A stretch of DNA of 64,000 nt from Phycisphaeraceae bacterium (GTDB taxonomy: Bacteria > Planctomycetota > Phycisphaerae > Phycisphaerales > UBA1924), in the NCBI GenBank assembly GCA_019636495.1, contig JAHBXL010000003.1, positions 1 through 64,000 on the forward strand, written 5' to 3'. Position numbers and translations under genes: made by a program. Positions within the stretch are counted from its first letter, which is position 1. Every line of letters starts with the position of its first letter. The notes beneath the pieces were generated by a model. That model was not told the origin of the DNA. It did not search any database and saw only the letters and a program-made list of their open reading frames with translations. Shown here in pieces: positions 10,493 through 63,794 of the stretch.

Positions 10493-10625
10493 GGAGAACC
10501 GTAGGTGAGGAGACGCACTCAATCGGCAACCGGCGGGTCCTTGCGGGTGGGGCGGAACGGGCTGATCAGTGAAGTTTGAGCAACCGGTGGAACCCGCCCG
10601 ATAACCATGCGAAAGGAGTCTGTAC

Positions 10626-11720
10626 ATGCTGAACCCATCCGCTCCCCGTCGCGCTCTCGTGGCGGGGTGTGTTGCCGGGGCTGTTCTCATCGCAGCCGCC
10701 GCGCCTGCTCCCGTCCAGCCCGTGCCCGACTACGACTTCCAGTGGTCGGTGATCGGCGCACCCGGCAACCGCGCGGCCAATGAGCAGGAAGCGCCCGTGC
10801 TCTTCCACCCCGTGCTGTACCCGCCCAACGGGCTGCAGGTCGGCGCGGTGAACTACGAGTACCGCATGGCCCGAACGGAAGTGACGGTCTCGCAGTGGTT
10901 TGAGTTCGTGCAGGCATACGCGCCCTACTACACCGGCCCCGCGCCGGGCACATCCATGGGGAGCAGCGACTGGGTTCTGACGGGCCAATGGATCGCGCCC
11001 ATCGCCGGAAGCGGGCAGAACGGCCAGCCCTGGCAGTTCACCATGGACCCGGCGGCTGCGAATCTCGCGACCGGCACGAGTTGGCATTTCGCGGCCCGCT
11101 ACGCCAACTGGCTGCACAACGGCAAGGCGCACGAGCAGTGGGCCTTTGAGACCGGCGTGTACGACACCTCGACATTCACGCGCAACCCGGATGGGACGTG
11201 GAACGACCAGTTCACGCCTGCGCCGGGGGCGAGGTTTTGGCTGCCAACGCTGGATGAATGGACCAAGGGCATGTATTACGACCCGCACCGCTACGGTGAA
11301 GGACAGGAGGGGTACTGGCGCTACCCGTTCGGGCGCGACACGTTCGCCGTCCCCGGCTACCCCGAAGACGGTGGCGAGACCGCCGCGGGCCTCCCGTACC
11401 CGCCGGACTTCGATGCCCACTGGTGGACGCCGGTCGGCGCGTACCCGCACATCACCAGCCCGTGGGGGCTGCTGGATGGCAGCGGTGGTGGTCCATCCGC
11501 GGAATGGACGACCAGCGGCGACGAGTGGGGAAGGTGGGCGCAGGGGAGCGGTCAGTTTGGGGGGGATACAGCCTATCTGTACGACCAGATCGACTACCTT
11601 GGAATGGGCGGGTTGAGCGGGGGCGGCGGGGCGTTTAGGCTGGCCTCCGCGATCCCCGCCCCATCATCCGTTCTGATATTCTGCCTGACGGTGCCCTTGT
11701 TGGAGAGGAGAAAGCGATGA
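10626..11720 (+). CDS. Exported SUMF1-type (FGE-like) protein with PEP-CTERM tail
   Basis: A 364-residue protein. It has a signal peptide (about residues 1-28), then a sulfatase-modifying-factor fold: RMARTEVTVSQWFEF, HFAARYANWLHNGKA, FWLPTLDEWTKGMYYDP and WRYPFG are its hallmark segments. The C-terminus is a PEP-CTERM-type sorting signal (IPAPSSVLIFCLTVPLLERRKR-like). In planctomycetes this fold is often non-enzymatic. The start has a good ribosome site (aaaggag) ten bases upstream. The stop overlaps the next gene's ATG in an ATGA, so the two are translationally coupled. Confidence 0.85.
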   Translation: MLNPSAPRRALVAGCVAGAVLIAAAAPAPVQPVPDYDFQWSVIGAPGNRAANEQEAPVLFHPVLYPPNGLQVGAVNYEYRMARTEVTVSQWFEFVQAYAPYYTGPAPGTSMGSSDWVLTGQWIAPIAGSGQNGQPWQFTMDPAAANLATGTSWHFAARYANWLHNGKAHEQWAFETGVYDTSTFTRNPDGTWNDQFTPAPGARFWLPTLDEWTKGMYYDPHRYGEGQEGYWRYPFGRDTFAVPGYPEDGGETAAGLPYPPDFDAHWWTPVGAYPHITSPWGLLDGSGGGPSAEWTTSGDEWGRWAQGSGQFGGDTAYLYDQIDYLGMGGLSGGGGAFRLASAIPAPSSVLIFCLTVPLLERRKR

Positions 11721-20339: not shown

Positions 20340-20369
20340 TTGGCATCCGGAATCCGTTTGTGGTAGACT
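20340..20369 (+). promoter_or_regulatory. Sigma70-type promoter for PEP-CTERM/oxidase pair
   Basis: A -35 box TTGGCA (20340-20345) and a -10 box TAGACT (20364-20369) are separated by 18 bases. The expected start of transcription is near 20376, giving a leader of about 77 bases that contains the long G tract. The same gtggtagactggg surround occurs at the promoter at 34749. Confidence 0.6.
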
Positions 20370-20420: not shown

Positions 20421-20437
20421 GGGGGGGGGGGGGGGGG
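20421..20437 (+). repeat. Homopolymeric G tract of 17 bases
   Basis: An uninterrupted run of 17 G lies 15 bases before the start codon of the PEP-CTERM gene, inside the predicted leader. Tracts this long are prone to slippage during replication. Length change here would alter leader structure or spacing rather than reading frame. Confidence 0.9.
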
Positions 20438-20452: not shown

Positions 20453-21148
20453 ATGAAGAGATTTCTTTGCGTGTTTGCGGCGGCGGCGGTGCTGGCCGCA
20501 GCGACGGAGGGTCGGGCGCAGTTCTTCGATGACTTTGATGGCGATGATCTGGCCCCGCACTGGTCGTCACCACTCGCACCCCCCGAGTTTCAGCATCTTG
20601 TGTGGGCTCATCGAGTGGAGGGCGGGCTCCTCTGGGTCGATGACCTGCTGTTCCCATCCAGCGGGGGGTCGAATACGAACTATCAGTACCTCGATACGTT
20701 CATTCCCCCAGTGTTTGGCGATTTCACTGCAATCGCTGTGATGGGGTTGACCGCCGGTTCGCACCGATCGATCAGCATGCGGCTTTCCGGAACGCAGGCA
20801 GGGGGCCTCGGCGATTTCATCTACAATGAGAATGGAGTTGTTGGGATTGGTGTAGGTGGGACGACGGTGCTGCCGACGACGTTAGACCCGGGGCTGCACG
20901 AGTTTAAGATGGTCCGAACGGGCGCGCAGATTTCGTATTTCTTGGACAATGTCCATCTAGGTACTCTTGCAAACAGCAATGTGGATCAAGGGGCGTACTG
21001 GCTCCGACTGCAGTTCGATGTAAGCTACCCTGCGGGCCTTCCCATGGCCCCGATGCTGGTGGATCACGTTTCGGTAGTCCCGGCACCCGCATCGACAACT
21101 GTAGTTCTTATGGCACTCGCATTGAGTTCCAGAAAGCGGAGGAACTGA
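20453..21148 (+). CDS. Exported concanavalin-like protein with PEP-CTERM tail
   Basis: A 231-residue protein. A signal peptide (CVFAAAAVLAAATEGRAQ) precedes a beta-sandwich-like domain opening FFDDFDGDDLAPHW, a pattern of LamG/GH16-like folds; no catalytic pair is evident. The C-terminus VVPAPASTTVVLMALALSSRKRRN-like is a PEP-CTERM signal. The stop TGA is directly followed by the ATG of a copper radical oxidase in the same frame, so the two are translationally coupled. Base composition is a little less GC-rich than its surroundings. Confidence 0.8.
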   Translation: MKRFLCVFAAAAVLAAATEGRAQFFDDFDGDDLAPHWSSPLAPPEFQHLVWAHRVEGGLLWVDDLLFPSSGGSNTNYQYLDTFIPPVFGDFTAIAVMGLTAGSHRSISMRLSGTQAGGLGDFIYNENGVVGIGVGGTTVLPTTLDPGLHEFKMVRTGAQISYFLDNVHLGTLANSNVDQGAYWLRLQFDVSYPAGLPMAPMLVDHVSVVPAPASTTVVLMALALSSRKRRN

Positions 21149-22549
21149 ATGCCCGGCTCGTGGGAACCGCTTGAGCCTATCGGGATGCAGCACCGTGCTA
21201 TTCACTTGGCGCACCTCAAGATCGGTCAGTATCTGTATTGGGCCGATGGAAGCGCGTTTGGCACGCCGACGGCGTTGTATGACGCAAGCGATACTGATCA
21301 ACAACCGATCTACTTCACAGGGCAGAACCTGAATCTTCATTGTTGCGGCCACTGCGCTTTGCCGGATGGCCGCATTCTCACCGCAGGTGGCGAGTTCGAT
21401 AGCAATGGCAAAGCCCCTACGTTTGCGGCCATCTTTGACGCCAATGCGCTGCCTTCGAACCCGTGGACCCGCGTCGCCGACATGCACGAGCACCGATGGT
21501 ATCCGACCTGCACGCTTCTCCCCAGTGGCAAAGTCGCCGTGTTCGGGGGGTGGATCACCGATAGCCCCGTGACGACGGCGGACACGCCGGAGGTCTATCA
21601 CCCCGCCACCGACACCTGGTCGCTGGAGTCCTCCGCGACCCGGGTTCAGGAAGTCTATCCGTTCATGTTCGTGATGCCGGATGGTCGGCTGTTTGATGCC
21701 GGCCCGCACCGCGACACGTTCTTTCTTGATCTGTCGACGTGGACGTGGGGCGCGGCGATCGACAGCCTCCTGCCGCATTGTTCCGATTCATCGGCGGTCA
21801 TGTTTGACGCGGTGTTGGGCAGAGTTCTGAAGGCCGGCGGCGCGCCGGTTGCGAACAACCCAACAGGTGCTGCAACAGACATGGCCGTGGTGTTTGGCGG
21901 GCCGACCTCGCCGACATGGACGCAGGTCGGCAACATGAATCTGGCACGTCGGGATCACAACATGGTGGTGTTGCCCGATGGCAAAGTCGTCGCCCTCGGC
22001 GGGTGCGCCCTGCCGACACCGCAAAGCCCGGTGATGCGTGCCGAGGTCTTTGACCCGTCAACCGGGCAGTGGACGGTAGACCCGGTCGACGTCGAGATGG
22101 CCATCCCTCGGTGGTACCACTCCTCGGCATCGCTCATGGATGATGGCCGAGTCATGACGGCGGGAGGGGACAACTACAATCCGCCCGTGTGTCAGAATGC
22201 ACAATATTACGTTCCCGCCTATCTCCAAGGCAACCCACTGCGCTCGCAGTGGGTGATGAATGCCGTGCCGCAAGTGATGGAGTACGGCGTCGAGTACACC
22301 ATCTCAGTCGTGCAGGTCGAAGGGCGAACGCTTAAGTTGGCGGCCCTGACACGTCTCACGACCGTGACGCACGGCTTCGATCAGGACCAGCGCTACGTTC
22401 CGCTGAAGTTCGAGATGTCTGGTGGCCAGGCGAAAGTGACTGCACCTGCGAACGCCGCGGTTGCTCCGCCAGGGTACTACCTGCTCTGGGTCCTTGATGA
22501 CCTCGGCGTGCCCTGTCTCCGGGCGGCGTACGTGCGCATTGGAGTTTAA
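21149..22549 (+). CDS. Copper radical oxidase of the galactose/glyoxal oxidase family
   Basis: A 466-residue kelch beta-propeller with a C-terminal DUF1929-type early-set domain. All catalytic residues of galactose oxidase have counterparts: Cys65 (HCCGH) and Tyr118 (HRWYPTC) for the Cys-Tyr cofactor, Tyr323-His324 (RWYHSS) and His408 (VTHGFDQDQR) for copper. A Trp after the second blade (FGGW) may match the stacking Trp. Such enzymes oxidise alcohols or aldehydes to form H2O2. Family members are normally secreted or membrane-anchored, but no signal peptide is visible here. The gene follows the PEP-CTERM gene with no gap and in the same frame. The substrate is unknown. Confidence 0.85.
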   Translation: MPGSWEPLEPIGMQHRAIHLAHLKIGQYLYWADGSAFGTPTALYDASDTDQQPIYFTGQNLNLHCCGHCALPDGRILTAGGEFDSNGKAPTFAAIFDANALPSNPWTRVADMHEHRWYPTCTLLPSGKVAVFGGWITDSPVTTADTPEVYHPATDTWSLESSATRVQEVYPFMFVMPDGRLFDAGPHRDTFFLDLSTWTWGAAIDSLLPHCSDSSAVMFDAVLGRVLKAGGAPVANNPTGAATDMAVVFGGPTSPTWTQVGNMNLARRDHNMVVLPDGKVVALGGCALPTPQSPVMRAEVFDPSTGQWTVDPVDVEMAIPRWYHSSASLMDDGRVMTAGGDNYNPPVCQNAQYYVPAYLQGNPLRSQWVMNAVPQVMEYGVEYTISVVQVEGRTLKLAALTRLTTVTHGFDQDQRYVPLKFEMSGGQAKVTAPANAAVAPPGYYLLWVLDDLGVPCLRAAYVRIGV

Positions 22550-58657: not shown

Positions 58658-59805
58658 GCCGAGAACCACAGCGCGAGGAACGCGAAGATGTCGCCGACAG
58701 TCAGGCCCGGCAGGCCATCGACGTCGGCCCGAAGGTCCGCGGCGAACCACGCCGCGAGGAAAGAGAAGATGTCGGACACGGTGACCGCTCCGTCGCGGTC
58801 GAAGTCGGCGGGATGAAAGGCGGGGCGGACAATCGCGACCGCATCGATCTCGGCCGACCACTCACCGACCGGGCCGAGCAGCGCGTGCACGGGGTTGGTG
58901 ATGCGCACGAAGTCGATGCGATCGAGGTTCGCGGGCGCGCCCGTCGCCGCATCGACCGCCCACGCGATGTCGATCGCATCGCCGCCTCCGGATCCCGGCG
59001 AGATACCAACCGTGAGCGGATCATCGGGCACGGTGTAGAAGTCCTCGGGTGCGAGCGTTGGATCATCGACGAGGTTGTTGCCCGTCAGGTCGCCGAGCAG
59101 GAGCGTGGGCGTGTGATCGGCATAGCCCCAGACGCCCTCGGTCTCGGCGGCGGATCCGTTGGGGTTCACCAGCACCGGCGCGATGCCGAACATGGAAACG
59201 GGCAGTTGGTGCGTGGTCGTCTGCCAGGTGTGCAGCGGCGGGAACGCGGGCGTGCCGGGCGGCAGCCACGAGACCTGCGCGGGGCCGTGTGTCGGGTCGG
59301 CGGTGTCGTTGTCCCAGGTCATCGTGAACAGGCTCGCCGCGAAGGGCTCGGCCAGGTGCGAGCCGGGGATCAGGTACCAGGCATCATCGGCCAGGCCGTT
59401 GTGGTTGTCATCGCGCGAAACTTCGATGATCGCGCACTCGGCAAAGCGGCGGCTGGGGTCGCCAAGAACATAACTTGCGTTACCGAAGATGATGATGTCG
59501 AGTCCCATCGGATTGCGCGGGTCGTCGAGGATCGGTCGGTCGAAGCCGAGCGTGATGGAACCCCCGAAGCCGCCGAGGGTTACGACGCCGGAGTTGTCCG
59601 GGCTGATCGTCCCCCCGCCGGTCGGTGGTCCGAGCGCGCGGGAGGGATTGTTGTATTGCGGCTGGTTGACGAACTGCCCCGGCGCGGGCGCGTAGTGTAC
59701 AACGCGCGTGGCGAACCACGAGTCGCCGGCGCTCGCAGCGGCCGCCGACGAAAGACACACGGCCGCCGCGGCGGCCATGAGGGGTTGCAGGTGGGGCCCG
59801 CTCAT
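58654..59805 (-). CDS. Exported jelly-roll-like protein with GC-type dockerin tail
   Basis: A 383-residue protein. A signal peptide (MAAAAAVCLSSAAAASA) is followed by a domain with VVHYAPAPGQFVNQPQYNN, GGSITLGFDRPILDDP, LDIIIFGNASYVLGDP, CAIIEVSRDDNHNGLADD and AWYLIPGSHL. This pattern is like the cell-surface proteins coded beside BtuB/BtuG in Bacteroides B12 loci (GSITLGFDH..., ...NGLPDDTWYELAGSE). The tail has paired dockerin units VTVSDIFSFLAAWF and LTVGDIFAFLALWF. It overlaps the propeller gene upstream and the prepilin gene downstream by four bases each. Confidence 0.85.
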   Translation of the reverse strand: MSGPHLQPLMAAAAAVCLSSAAAASAGDSWFATRVVHYAPAPGQFVNQPQYNNPSRALGPPTGGGTISPDNSGVVTLGGFGGSITLGFDRPILDDPRNPMGLDIIIFGNASYVLGDPSRRFAECAIIEVSRDDNHNGLADDAWYLIPGSHLAEPFAASLFTMTWDNDTADPTHGPAQVSWLPPGTPAFPPLHTWQTTTHQLPVSMFGIAPVLVNPNGSAAETEGVWGYADHTPTLLLGDLTGNNLVDDPTLAPEDFYTVPDDPLTVGISPGSGGGDAIDIAWAVDAATGAPANLDRIDFVRITNPVHALLGPVGEWSAEIDAVAIVRPAFHPADFDRDGAVTVSDIFSFLAAWFAADLRADVDGLPGLTVGDIFAFLALWFSA

Positions 59806-60878
59806 TCGCGCCGCCTCCTGCGCGCGGCCACGAACACGCCGCCGACCGCGATGGCCGCTCCCGCGCCCGGCGCGGGCACGGCGTAGCGGTAGGCCGTGTT
59901 GTCGGCGAACACGAGCACTTCCTCCGTGAAATCGTTGAACGCGATGCCGTAGAACGCGAACGATCCCGCGGGAGAGAGCCGCAGTTCGGCGCTGTCGGGC
60001 GCGGGCCCGCCGCCCAGCAGCGCGGCCGCGATCGCGTCCGCATCGATCACCGCGGCGTAGCCGAAGTCGTTGGAGCCCGCGAAGAAGTCGCCGCCGCCTG
60101 CGAGCAGGTTGCCCAGCGCATCGAAGCGCACCGGTGAGGCGCTGAGCGCATCGGCGACGAGCGTGCCGGTGAGGAAATCGACGGGCGCGCCCGCCGCGGC
60201 GAGCGCGGCGAGGTCGAACGCGCGGACGTTGCCGGTCGGCGCGCCGCCATCGGACGTGTTGAAGCCGTCGCCGATGAACACGCGGCCGGCGCGAACTGCC
60301 ACGCCGCCGCTTCCGCCCGCGCCGATGTCCACCACTTGCGTGGCGCCGAGCGCATTGGAATCCACGCGCCACACGCCGGGGCCGGAGCCGAATCCGGAGA
60401 TGTACAAGGTCGAATCGTCGGCCCACGCGCCATCAAAGTTGGGCGCGGCGGCGAAGGTGGTTGCCGTCGTGCTCATGGGCGAGAGCGCGGCGAGATCGAC
60501 AAAGTGCACGCGGTTGGCCGCGCCGTTATCGCCGATGGCCAAACGCGAGCCGCCCGGGCTCACGGCGACAAACGAGGCCCCGAAACTGCCGAACGGGCCG
60601 TCGAAAATCGGGCCGACAGACCCGGCGAGCGTGTACGAGCCCGCGTTGACAGCATCCTGCACCAGCACCCGGCCATCGGACGCTACGCCGATCAGCCGTC
60701 CATCGGGCAGCACATCGACGGCCACGGGGTTGAAGTCGCCCTGTGCGCCCGTCGGCAGCGCATAGGAGCCGACGGGTTGATAGGGGGGCAGCGCGGCGTG
60801 CGCATCGCACGAGAGCACGCCGAACACGGGAACAACCGCCGCGACCAGCGCGGCACGAACAACTGAACGGAACTTCAT
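59802..60878 (-). CDS. Exported beta-propeller-like protein with PEP-CTERM tail, first gene after the cobalamin riboswitch
   Basis: A 358-residue protein. A signal peptide (RAALVAAVVPVFGVLSCDAHA) is followed by repeated propeller-like strands (VAVDVLPDGRLIGVASDGRVLV, FVAVSPGGSRLAIGDNGAANRVHFVDL, DDSTLYISGFGSGPGVWRVDSN, VRAGRVFIGDGFNTSDGG). The tail VPAPGAGAAIAVGGVFVAARRRRRE is PEP-CTERM-like. It is the first gene downstream of the riboswitch, so its product is expected to be made when B12 is scarce. Fold and position resemble BtuG, the surface beta-propeller that binds B12 in Bacteroides; direct B12 binding is inference. The start ATG 60878 has aggagaggcgag upstream. Confidence 0.82.
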   Translation of the reverse strand: MKFRSVVRAALVAAVVPVFGVLSCDAHAALPPYQPVGSYALPTGAQGDFNPVAVDVLPDGRLIGVASDGRVLVQDAVNAGSYTLAGSVGPIFDGPFGSFGASFVAVSPGGSRLAIGDNGAANRVHFVDLAALSPMSTTATTFAAAPNFDGAWADDSTLYISGFGSGPGVWRVDSNALGATQVVDIGAGGSGGVAVRAGRVFIGDGFNTSDGGAPTGNVRAFDLAALAAAGAPVDFLTGTLVADALSASPVRFDALGNLLAGGGDFFAGSNDFGYAAVIDADAIAAALLGGGPAPDSAELRLSPAGSFAFYGIAFNDFTEEVLVFADNTAYRYAVPAPGAGAAIAVGGVFVAARRRRRE

Positions 60879-61069
60879 GGGTTCTCGCCTCTCCTGCACA
60901 CTCCGAATCGCGCGGAGCGGCTCCCGGACCTTGAAGGCCTTCGCGTCGGGGAGGGTGTTTGAAGCGCCGGCAGGGCGAGCACTCAAACTGCCGGGGTGGA
61001 CCGCCGCGGGGAACAGCGCGGCGAAACACGGCCGGCGCCCCAAGTCGCGAGGGCGGGCACGAAACACGG
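60879..61069 (-). promoter_or_regulatory. Leader / expression platform between B12 aptamer and first gene
   Basis: About 190 bases lie between the aptamer's B12 box and the ATG at 60878. They contain GC-rich inverted words but no terminator with a T run, so control is more likely by hiding the ribosome site (aggagaggcgag) than by termination. No gene is seen in this part. Confidence 0.5.
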
Positions 61070-61285
61070 CCCAGGGCAGGTCTTCCGGCTTCGGGGTGCC
61101 ACTGACTTTCAAGTCAGTGGAGTCGGGCCCGGCCTTCCCATTCCCGCATCGCGAGAACAGTGGCAGTTTCGAGCCCGCGCAACCCCGTTACGGCGGCGCG
61201 TCCGCGGCGGAATCGGGGGTTGTTCGTACAACCCGCCTCACCGCACTTCCCTTTTCAGCCCGCCCCGCCCGGCACCAGGCCGGAC
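61070..61285 (-). promoter_or_regulatory. Cobalamin (B12) riboswitch aptamer
   Basis: Read on the minus strand, the order of conserved elements is: ggtgcc (about 61276), gctgaaaagggaag (about 61245-61260), gcggtg, a variable hairpin with gttgtacgaacaac, gattccgccgcggacgcg and ccgccgtaacgggg, a second variable arm, a stem ccactgac/gtcagtgg, and the B12 box agccggaagacctgcc (61090-61075). This matches the cobalamin riboswitch consensus. It lies 190 bases upstream of the PEP-CTERM propeller gene on the same strand. The right edge is approximate. Confidence 0.9.
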
Positions 61286-61476
61286 GAGGAGGGCACCATG
61301 GGCAGGGGCAGAATAGCAAGTGGGGCGGGGGTGTCAAGACCCTCGACCGCCTCAGGGGGTATGGAACCGCCGCTACGCGGCTTGCGAACCGAAGGTCGGT
61401 CGCGTTCGCGACTTTGCGCGGGAGACTCGTCCCGCGGGCAGGTGTTGTTCAACAGTCCAGCATCGCAGGAATGCCC
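61286..61476. other. Divergent intergenic region
   Basis: Between the riboswitch and the HAF-repeat gene on the plus strand no gene is seen. It should hold promoters for both directions, but I could not pick a convincing -35/-10 pair on either strand. Confidence 0.35.
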
Positions 61477-62628
61477 ATGAGCACGAATCGGTGCATCATC
61501 GCGCTTGCTCTTTCGCTCGCTAGCGGCCAGTCAGTGGCCGAGGCCTCCATCAGTTTTCTGCCGGTCAGTGCACCGGGCGATTACTTCTACGCGACCTCTC
61601 TTAGCGCCGATGGCCGTGTTGTCACTGGGCGGCGCGGCGGTGACTCTCAAGCGATTGCGGAGATCTGGACGGAACAGAGCGGGCTCGTCTCCACGGGTCT
61701 CGTGGTGCGATATCCACCAAACTACTACCGGCGCGACGTGTTTGTAAGCCCTGACGCCCAAGTGCTAGGGGGTCGCGGGCAAACCGGCCACGCATTCCGT
61801 TGGACGACGGACGCCGGGACTCAGCCTTTGAGTGCGGGCCAGTATTGGAGTGTGAGCGTCGCGTCCAACTTTGATGGGAGCGCGCTTCTTGGGTGGAACG
61901 TTGAAGGGGGTGCGTTCTACTGGACCGAGTCGTCAGGCACCGTCTCGATCGGTCGGCCCGCTGAACTTCCATTGGGCAGCGCGCCGCACGCGTTTGGCCT
62001 TTCGTACGATGGGCAGACCGCGGCCTTGGTTGTGCCGCAGATGTCAAACGAACGCGGGATCGTCCATTGGTGGTCTCCTGCGACGGGATACCGATCAACT
62101 GGCGTGACAACCTGGGCAAGTTATCCAAACGGATACACGATGGCAATCAGTGGCGACGGGTCAGCCATCGCATGTACGCAGCGGTCATCGCCCAATGTTG
62201 TGGGGCCTGTGGTGCTGGTTCGTGAGGGTGAGCCGACTCATCTGATCGGATTGCTTGACGGAGACAACTGGGCGGAGGCATGGGCGACAAGCTATGACGG
62301 CACGGTTGTCGTCGGCAACTCATGGTCCCTCCAGGGACAGGCAAGACCATTCCTCTGGCGAGAAGACCTCGGGATTGTGGACTTGAACGTCTATCTCACG
62401 GACCTGGGCATCGACTTGACTGGGTGGCAACTTCTTGGAACACGCGGCATCTCGGCTGATGGCACCATCATTGTGGGGCGCGGCCGTTACCTCTTGAATG
62501 GACTGTGGCACGACCGCAGTTGGATTGCGACGATTCCAGTGCCTTCGACTGGCCTTGCCTGCGTGATCGCGTGGGCTACGCTCGGCCTGCGCCGCCAACG
62601 TCGCAGACATTCATCAGATCAACTTTAG
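61477..62628 (+). CDS. Exported HAF-repeat protein with PEP-CTERM tail, copy 1
   Basis: A 383-residue protein. A signal peptide (IIALALSLASGQSVAEAS) is followed by repeated units with the HAF-type wording: SLSADGRVVTGRRGG, TSYDGTVVVGNSW...RPFLWREDLGIVDLN, ISADGTIIVGRG. Such units form extracellular beta-repeat domains of unknown function. The tail IPVPSTGLACVIAWATLGLRRQRRR is PEP-CTERM-like. Of two adjacent ATG codons, 61477 has agga six bases upstream and is chosen. The next gene is a paralogue. No role with the riboswitch operon on the other strand is implied. Confidence 0.8.
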   Translation: MSTNRCIIALALSLASGQSVAEASISFLPVSAPGDYFYATSLSADGRVVTGRRGGDSQAIAEIWTEQSGLVSTGLVVRYPPNYYRRDVFVSPDAQVLGGRGQTGHAFRWTTDAGTQPLSAGQYWSVSVASNFDGSALLGWNVEGGAFYWTESSGTVSIGRPAELPLGSAPHAFGLSYDGQTAALVVPQMSNERGIVHWWSPATGYRSTGVTTWASYPNGYTMAISGDGSAIACTQRSSPNVVGPVVLVREGEPTHLIGLLDGDNWAEAWATSYDGTVVVGNSWSLQGQARPFLWREDLGIVDLNVYLTDLGIDLTGWQLLGTRGISADGTIIVGRGRYLLNGLWHDRSWIATIPVPSTGLACVIAWATLGLRRQRRRHSSDQL

Positions 62629-62663
62629 CGAGTTTCTGATCGCGTCTTCGAGAGGAACAGCAC

Positions 62664-63794
62664 ATGAGGCATCTACGTGGCGCGGCGATTCTTGTTGCGG
62701 CGCTTCTGCACTGGCTCTTGCCGGCCGAGTCCCCAGGAGCGGTCTTCTCCGGCATCGGGTCCTATCAATCTCCTTTCTTTGCCGAAGGCATTGGTGCCGA
62801 CGGTGCAACTGTGGTCGGACTTCAGTCTGTTTTCGCTGGTTACGAGGCGGGCCTGTGGTCGTCCGACACGGGTGTCGTGAGTACGGGCGTCTCGGTCAGG
62901 TACCCGACCGGCTCGTTCTCGCGGAGACTCTCCATCAGCGCGGATGGCGGCACCATCGTCGGCACGCTGCGGAACGGGGGGCCGTTCCGACTGCGGATCG
63001 GAGAATCGGTCGAGCCCATCGTGGTGCCCGGTGCCATGACTTTCACGTGGGGGATCGCGGCGAGCGGCAGTGGCGACGTCGTTGTCGGTTTCGATACCGG
63101 CGGCTTGTCCGCCTTTCGATGGACCAGCGACACCGGCCCGATCGCCTTCGGTGCACCGGAGGGAACAGTACTCGCGCGAGGGTTTGATCTCGCCGCCGAT
63201 GGTCAGCGCGCGGTTGTTGCAAGCTCTATTGCAGGCTCGGGAACGTCCCGCGTGTTCCGCGTCGGCACCGATGGATCTTCGGACGACACCACGATCACAA
63301 CGTGGGTCTCGCAGGGTGCGAACGCGTTGGCGATCAGCGGCGACGGCTTGAGCATCGCGGCCCCGGTGCGGACGCTGATGAACGAGCCCGGTCCGCTTGC
63401 GATCTGGCGGGAGGGGCTGGGCGTGGAGGTCGTCGGATTGCCTCCCGGAGCGCACTCGGTGGACGCCGCGGCGATGAGTTTTGATGGCCAGACAGTGGTC
63501 GGCGCTGCGTTGGGGTCGAGCGGTGTACGGGCCTACCTCTGGAGCGCCGATCTGGGGATCGTGGACCTTCAGACTCTCATCGTCGCATCCGGTGTGGACC
63601 TGAGCAACTGGCAACTTCAGCGGGCCACAGGCGTGTCGTCTGACGGGCTCACGATTGTCGGGCAGGGGCTGCATCGCGTGAACGGCGAGTGGTTTGACCA
63701 GAGTTGGATCGTGACCATCCCTTCTCCTTCCACTCTTGCTGTTGCCTCGGCGGTGTGCGGGCTGATCTCAGTTCGCCGCCGGCGCGCGAAGTGA
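62664..63794 (+). CDS. Exported HAF-repeat protein with PEP-CTERM tail, copy 2
   Basis: A 376-residue paralogue of the previous gene, 35 bases downstream. A signal peptide (AAILVAALLHWLLPAESPGA) precedes the same repeats (SISADGGTIVGTLRNGG, MSFDGQTVVGAAL...AYLWSADLGIVDLQ, VSSDGLTIVGQGL, NGEWFDQSWIVTIP). The tail IPSPSTLAVASAVCGLISVRRRR is PEP-CTERM-like. The pair seems to be a tandem duplication that has since diverged. Confidence 0.8.
   Translation: MRHLRGAAILVAALLHWLLPAESPGAVFSGIGSYQSPFFAEGIGADGATVVGLQSVFAGYEAGLWSSDTGVVSTGVSVRYPTGSFSRRLSISADGGTIVGTLRNGGPFRLRIGESVEPIVVPGAMTFTWGIAASGSGDVVVGFDTGGLSAFRWTSDTGPIAFGAPEGTVLARGFDLAADGQRAVVASSIAGSGTSRVFRVGTDGSSDDTTITTWVSQGANALAISGDGLSIAAPVRTLMNEPGPLAIWREGLGVEVVGLPPGAHSVDAAAMSFDGQTVVGAALGSSGVRAYLWSADLGIVDLQTLIVASGVDLSNWQLQRATGVSSDGLTIVGQGLHRVNGEWFDQSWIVTIPSPSTLAVASAVCGLISVRRRRAK

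Follow-up and report, generated by a model that had tools for sequence, protein, structure and literature searches.

A copper radical oxidase homologue without a signal peptide, in a probable operon with an exported lectin-fold protein

Characterised copper radical oxidases are extracellular or surface enzymes, working where copper and O2 are available. The window, a 64,000-nt stretch of a Phycisphaeraceae bacterium contig, encodes a homologue that starts directly behind the stop codon of an exported protein, in the same frame and without an export signal. This layout raises the question of whether the two genes yield one protein or two, and in which compartment the oxidase would work. The sequence-only reading had proposed that readthrough of the stop places the oxidase on the cytoplasmic side of a membrane-anchored fusion. 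Our analysis instead makes it reasonably probable that the locus is an operon of an exported lectin-fold partner and a separately made, soluble oxidase, expected to be cytoplasmic, whose ancestral signal was lost.

The gene pair, its junction and its copies

The 231-aa partner ORF (20453-21148, + strand) ends in TGA, and this codon abuts the ATG of the 466-aa oxidase ORF (21149-22549, + strand) with a gap of 0 nt, in one frame and on one strand, exactly as the sequence-only reading had described. The genes flanking the pair likely lie on the opposite strand on both sides. The features of the locus are as follows.

20340..20369, + strand: promoter-like site TTGGCA-18-TAGACT upstream of the pair, with TG preceding the second hexamer
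20421..20437, + strand: 17 consecutive G in the leader, after the promoter-like site and before the partner start
20453..21148, + strand: partner, an exported protein with signal peptide (residues ~1-22), concanavalin-A-like beta-sandwich (~23-210) and tail (~210-231)
21138..21142, + strand: oxidase ribosome-binding site GGAGG, 6 nt before the ATG and within the last codons of the partner
21146..21151, + strand: junction of TGA and ATG, gap 0 nt; the gap is -1 (TGATG) in two homologous pairs
21149..22549, + strand: signal-less copper-radical-oxidase homologue, a seven-bladed kelch propeller with a galactose-oxidase-like E-set domain

Copies of the pair were sought in 163 genomes of the family. 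The oxidase was found in five of them and the partner in six; the sixth, G067, carries a 3'-truncated oxidase that fell below the search threshold. This yielded 15 pairs across six genomes: four in the window genome, six in G004, two in G090 and one each in G009, G001 and G067. The four of the window genome are the window pair and those on C12, C11 and C23 (at 193-195 kb, C23:193k), and the C12 oxidase is 88% identical to the window oxidase. Purifying selection is seen on both genes when the sequences of the window and C12 copies are compared (dN/dS of 0.11 for the oxidase and 0.15 for the partner). One promoter-like site was found upstream of the window pair, against a mean of 0.4 in shuffles, and a matching arrangement with an 18-nt spacer precedes four other pairs (C12, C11, C23:193k and G001). 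The 17-G run in the leader, where other copies have 4-8 G at the equivalent place, is possibly a slippage-prone site or an assembly artefact.

Across the 15 pairs, the gap between the genes is 0 nt in five (window, C12, C23:193k, G009 and G090a), -1 in two, +2 in two, -11 in one, -131 in one and +45 to +68 in four. UGA is in general a leaky stop, and the five pairs with a 0-nt gap have both genes in one frame, as readthrough into a fusion would need. The frame is shared in seven of the 15 pairs and differs in eight, so frame and continuity across the stop are not kept in the homologues as programmed readthrough would have it. Gap lengths span -131 to +68 nt, a separate Shine-Dalgarno site lies 5-9 nt before each oxidase start in the 15 pairs, and the search for a partner-oxidase fusion among the 15 pairs returned no fused ORF. 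The shared frame in the window is an automatic consequence of the 0-nt gap. The comparative data thus contradict the fusion proposed by the sequence-only reading, which we regard as very unlikely, and the two genes are almost certainly made as separate proteins.

In the copies with a gap of 0 or -1 (seven of the 15), arginine codons (AGG) of the basic tail of the partner double as the ribosome-binding site of the oxidase. Together with the gaps, the frames and the Shine-Dalgarno sites, this matches the prediction of separate initiation or translational coupling and not that of readthrough. Short gaps or overlaps are a known condition for termination-reinitiation (PMC10666635, PMC6728339), and the window junction has such a layout, with a 0-nt gap and a Shine-Dalgarno site close by. 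Coupling is therefore probable where the gap is 0 or -1. Tight coupling does not extend to the whole set, since five pairs with a gap of 45-68 nt or an overlap of 131 nt are too far from this arrangement.

Copper site and fold of the oxidase

The residues Cys65, Tyr118, Tyr323, His324 and His408 align with the copper site of solved copper radical oxidases, and all five are kept without exception in an alignment of 19 homologues, whose identity goes down to 30%. The complete site that the sequence-only reading had recognised is thus borne out. Pfam places a galactose-oxidase-like E-set (PF09118, 66 bits against a cut-off of 25) and Kelch repeats in the protein. An AlphaFold2 model, built from 19 sequences, reached a mean pLDDT of 87.6 and a pTM of 0.91, retained the copper site and showed the whole catalytic fold of galactose oxidase. 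Residues 1-466 of this model match residues 157-639 of galactose oxidase 1gof (Z 48.2, rmsd 2.0 A, 441 residues aligned), and the match to the bacterial galactose oxidase 9g43 gave a Z of 49.9. Residue 1 aligns to residue 157 of 1gof, and the N-terminal carbohydrate-binding domain 1 of galactose oxidase is absent. In the model, the oxidase is the catalytic propeller and E-set alone, beginning at the domain boundary. With the copper-site residues, the kelch propeller and the C-terminal E-set, it has the attributes of an AA5-like copper radical oxidase.

The closest solved relatives are fungal alcohol and aryl alcohol oxidases, galactose oxidases and GlxA. The galactose oxidases of Fusarium (1gof; CAZy AA5_2) and of bacteria (9g43/9g8h) share the propeller and E-set (Z 48-50, rmsd 2.0-2.1) and the five copper-site residues at 27-29% identity, whereas the window oxidase lacks their domain 1 and secretion signal. 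The alcohol oxidase CgrAlcOx of Colletotrichum (5c86/5c92) likewise consists of a catalytic domain and E-set without domain 1 and has the same ligands. CgrAlcOx and the Colletotrichum aryl alcohol oxidase (6ryv-6ryx) are fungal and secreted, and are 26-30% identical to the window oxidase. GlxA of Streptomyces (4unm; NF052501) is a bacterial copper radical oxidase of the same fold (Z 47.4) in an operon with its partner CslA. Unlike the window oxidase, it has an inserted domain and a signal or anchor (PMC11022532, PMC3543389), and the window oxidase scored 149 bits with the GlxA equivalog model NF052501, below its cut-off of 800 bits.

The protein is presumed to take up copper and to be catalytic. 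If copper-loaded, the oxidase would be expected to act on primary alcohol or aldehyde groups, oxidising them and releasing H2O2. Its substrate is not predictable from the position of galactose-oxidase Trp290, which is subject to a one-residue alignment shift and is variable in the family. What is new at this locus is a catalytic-domain-only, signal-less and operon-paired version of a known enzyme class.

The missing signal peptide and the exported partner

The first 40 residues of the window oxidase contain no hydrophobic core. Their best 10-residue Kyte-Doolittle mean is 0.95, and signal-less homologues range from 0.95 to 1.8, compared with 2.1 to 3.4 in signal-bearing relatives. A missed upstream start cannot supply a signal in the window, because an in-frame TGA (21146) lies directly before the oxidase ATG. 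The start M-x-G-x-W is conserved in the signal-less oxidases of the window, C12, G009, G090a, G004b and G004c, from three genera, and G3 and W5 are invariant in related signal-less oxidases at the equivalent start. As far as sequence can tell, the missing signal peptide is real, and this part of the sequence-only reading stands. In G004a (G004:C11, L061 4221), the oxidase start position is ACG with AGGAG 6 nt upstream; the ACG may serve as a rare start codon or have arisen by recent mutation. The number of cysteines was also considered as a marker of compartment and did not cleanly divide the homologues with a signal from those lacking one.

Elsewhere in the class, the relatives examined are unpaired and carry signal peptides, and so do two paired oxidases (G090b and G067). 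A search of the class relatives for the partner gave one weak match, on the opposite strand and away from the oxidase. From this distribution, the signal peptide of an exported ancestor was probably lost within the paired lineage. In the oxidase tree, some branches of which are long, the signal-less state needs at least two changes. G268, a candidate for an unpaired signal-less homologue, was rejected, as a signal peptide lies just upstream in another frame (a frameshift). Further afield, all five ligands recur, again with no evident signal, in homologues on Sinorhizobium meliloti pRRI128_2 (L110) and on a Nostoc sp. C057 plasmid (L114); unlike the window oxidase, these have a longer N-terminal part ahead of the domain. 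Next to the Nostoc gene, no comparable partner is annotated. These homologues indicate that the trait is not unique to the planctomycete lineage. The statement that known members are secreted or anchored thus holds for characterised members and apparently not for these uncharacterised ones; secretion or anchoring does not enter into how the fold is defined. Among open-access papers, we found nothing on signal-less copper radical oxidases. On a Burkholderia ambifaria plasmid (L112) and on Haliscomenobacter plasmid pHALHY01 (L115), oxidase homologues adjoin copper-supply genes (SCO family; copper P-type ATPase).

The partner begins with a signal peptide, in agreement with its earlier description as exported. 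Its structure model, built from 12 sequences (mean pLDDT 82.3), has an N-terminal signal helix, a beta-sandwich and, at the C-terminus, a helix that ends in basic residues. The fold is concanavalin-A-like, with Z of 15-18 to a carbohydrate-binding phage module, GH16 laminarinases and calreticulin; Pfam Laminin_G_3 matched two of 12 homologues (best E 7e-4). The tail consists of PxP, a hydrophobic helix and RKRR, and this plan of motif, helix and basic cluster behind a signal peptide is as described for PEP-CTERM proteins (PMC1569441). The window genome has an exosortase (PF09721, E 2e-47, at G000:C13:42977), in which ACSG, NMVR and HTFIG (L108:4852-5796) correspond to the three motifs of the family (Cys, NxxR and HxxxG). 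The partner differs in having PxP instead of PEP, and PEP-CTERM HMMs (TIGR02595 or related) did not match the window protein and reached only E 0.25 with one homologue, short of their cut-offs. Its assignment to PEP-CTERM is therefore upheld by the tail and by the exosortase elsewhere in the genome, and not by the profiles. In L108 4852-6689 (G000:C13), the exosortase gene is directly followed by an apparent EpsI-like gene. Four other window ORFs (10605-11717, 59805-61187 on the - strand, 60784-62625 and 62640-63791) end in [IV]PxP, a hydrophobic stretch and an Arg-rich end, and by these tails they are likely exosortase substrates of the genome.

An exported partner offers another route for the oxidase, which could leave the cytoplasm attached to the partner, or else non-classically. 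Lectin and oxidase would then cooperate beyond the inner membrane, like a split fungal galactose oxidase with its carbohydrate-binding and catalytic domains. Within the class, only oxidases with a partner lack the signal, apparently through two losses, and the unpaired relatives examined keep it. This pattern suggests co-export as the main rival to a cytoplasmic operon product. The lectin-type fold of the partner and the lack of the galactose oxidase N-terminal domain in the oxidase fit such a division. The oxidase is still exported in two pairs, which makes it probable that the ancestral pair functioned outside. Short-gap gene pairs are also enriched in subunits of complexes (PMC10666635).

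The partner signals, on the other hand, look Sec-type and have no clear twin-arginine motif, so hitchhiking through Tat was set aside. To our knowledge, Sec transports no folded passengers. Partner genes also occur without an oxidase. We consider co-export unlikely. Its more specific form, in which targeting was handed to the separately encoded, exosortase-sorted lectin and the signal was lost since the partner exports the oxidase or docks it at the membrane, is somewhat less likely still; if true, this would be a split, partner-targeted copper radical oxidase. A cytoplasmic oxidase that depends on copper and O2 is unusual, which counts against the cytoplasmic reading and leaves room for export by an unrecognised route.

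Interrupted copies and the proposed operon

Oxidases are broken in C11, C23:193k, G001, three copies of G004 and G067. Of the four pairs most closely related to the window pair, C12 has an uninterrupted oxidase, and those of C11, C23:193k and G001 are interrupted. C11 and C23:193k share a TAG at codon 256 and, near codon 80, what looks like the loss of one base from a G run, although the genomes are largely metagenome assemblies and single-base indels in G runs may be errors. Their oxidases (L029/L031) are 99.3% identical over 1215 bp spanning both lesions, whereas the upstream parts of the two copies are only about 72-74% identical; so the broken copy would have spread between them by gene conversion or recent recombination. 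The TAG of C11 and C23:193k is one shared event, and the in-frame TAG at codon 257 in G001 (L032) looks like a separate substitution. Programmed recoding of these codons was considered, and they were read as decay instead. The broken G004 oxidases comprise two truncated ones and one with a frameshift; that of G067 lacks its 3' part.

These lesions could mean that the signal-less oxidases are unused and on their way out, with the partner as the selected part, all the more as the only lesion in a partner ORF is a lost stop in G004 C7. The intact window and C12 oxidases with their low dN/dS, and the copper ligands and start conserved across three genera, speak against general decay, which we judge improbable. 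Selection on the oxidase is nevertheless not strong everywhere, as the interrupted nearest relatives demonstrate.

We thus favour a two-gene operon, probably under its own promoter, with one message that would give two separate proteins. The first gene would yield a lectin-fold protein that is exported by Sec and carries a PEP-CTERM-like tail for sorting. The oxidase would then be started by ribosomes that finish the partner, or that load at the Shine-Dalgarno site within its final codons, giving a separate soluble protein that, by its sequence, would stay in the cytoplasm and carry out its oxidation there if copper-loaded. Its ancestor would have been exported and signal-bearing before the signal was lost in the paired lineage. 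The locus adds a small, catalytic-domain-only scaffold of 466 aa to the copper radical oxidases. With an intact copper site and no export signal, it offers a test of whether a copper radical oxidase can mature and function in the bacterial cytoplasm or, alternatively, whether a signal-less passenger is exported together with its sorted partner.
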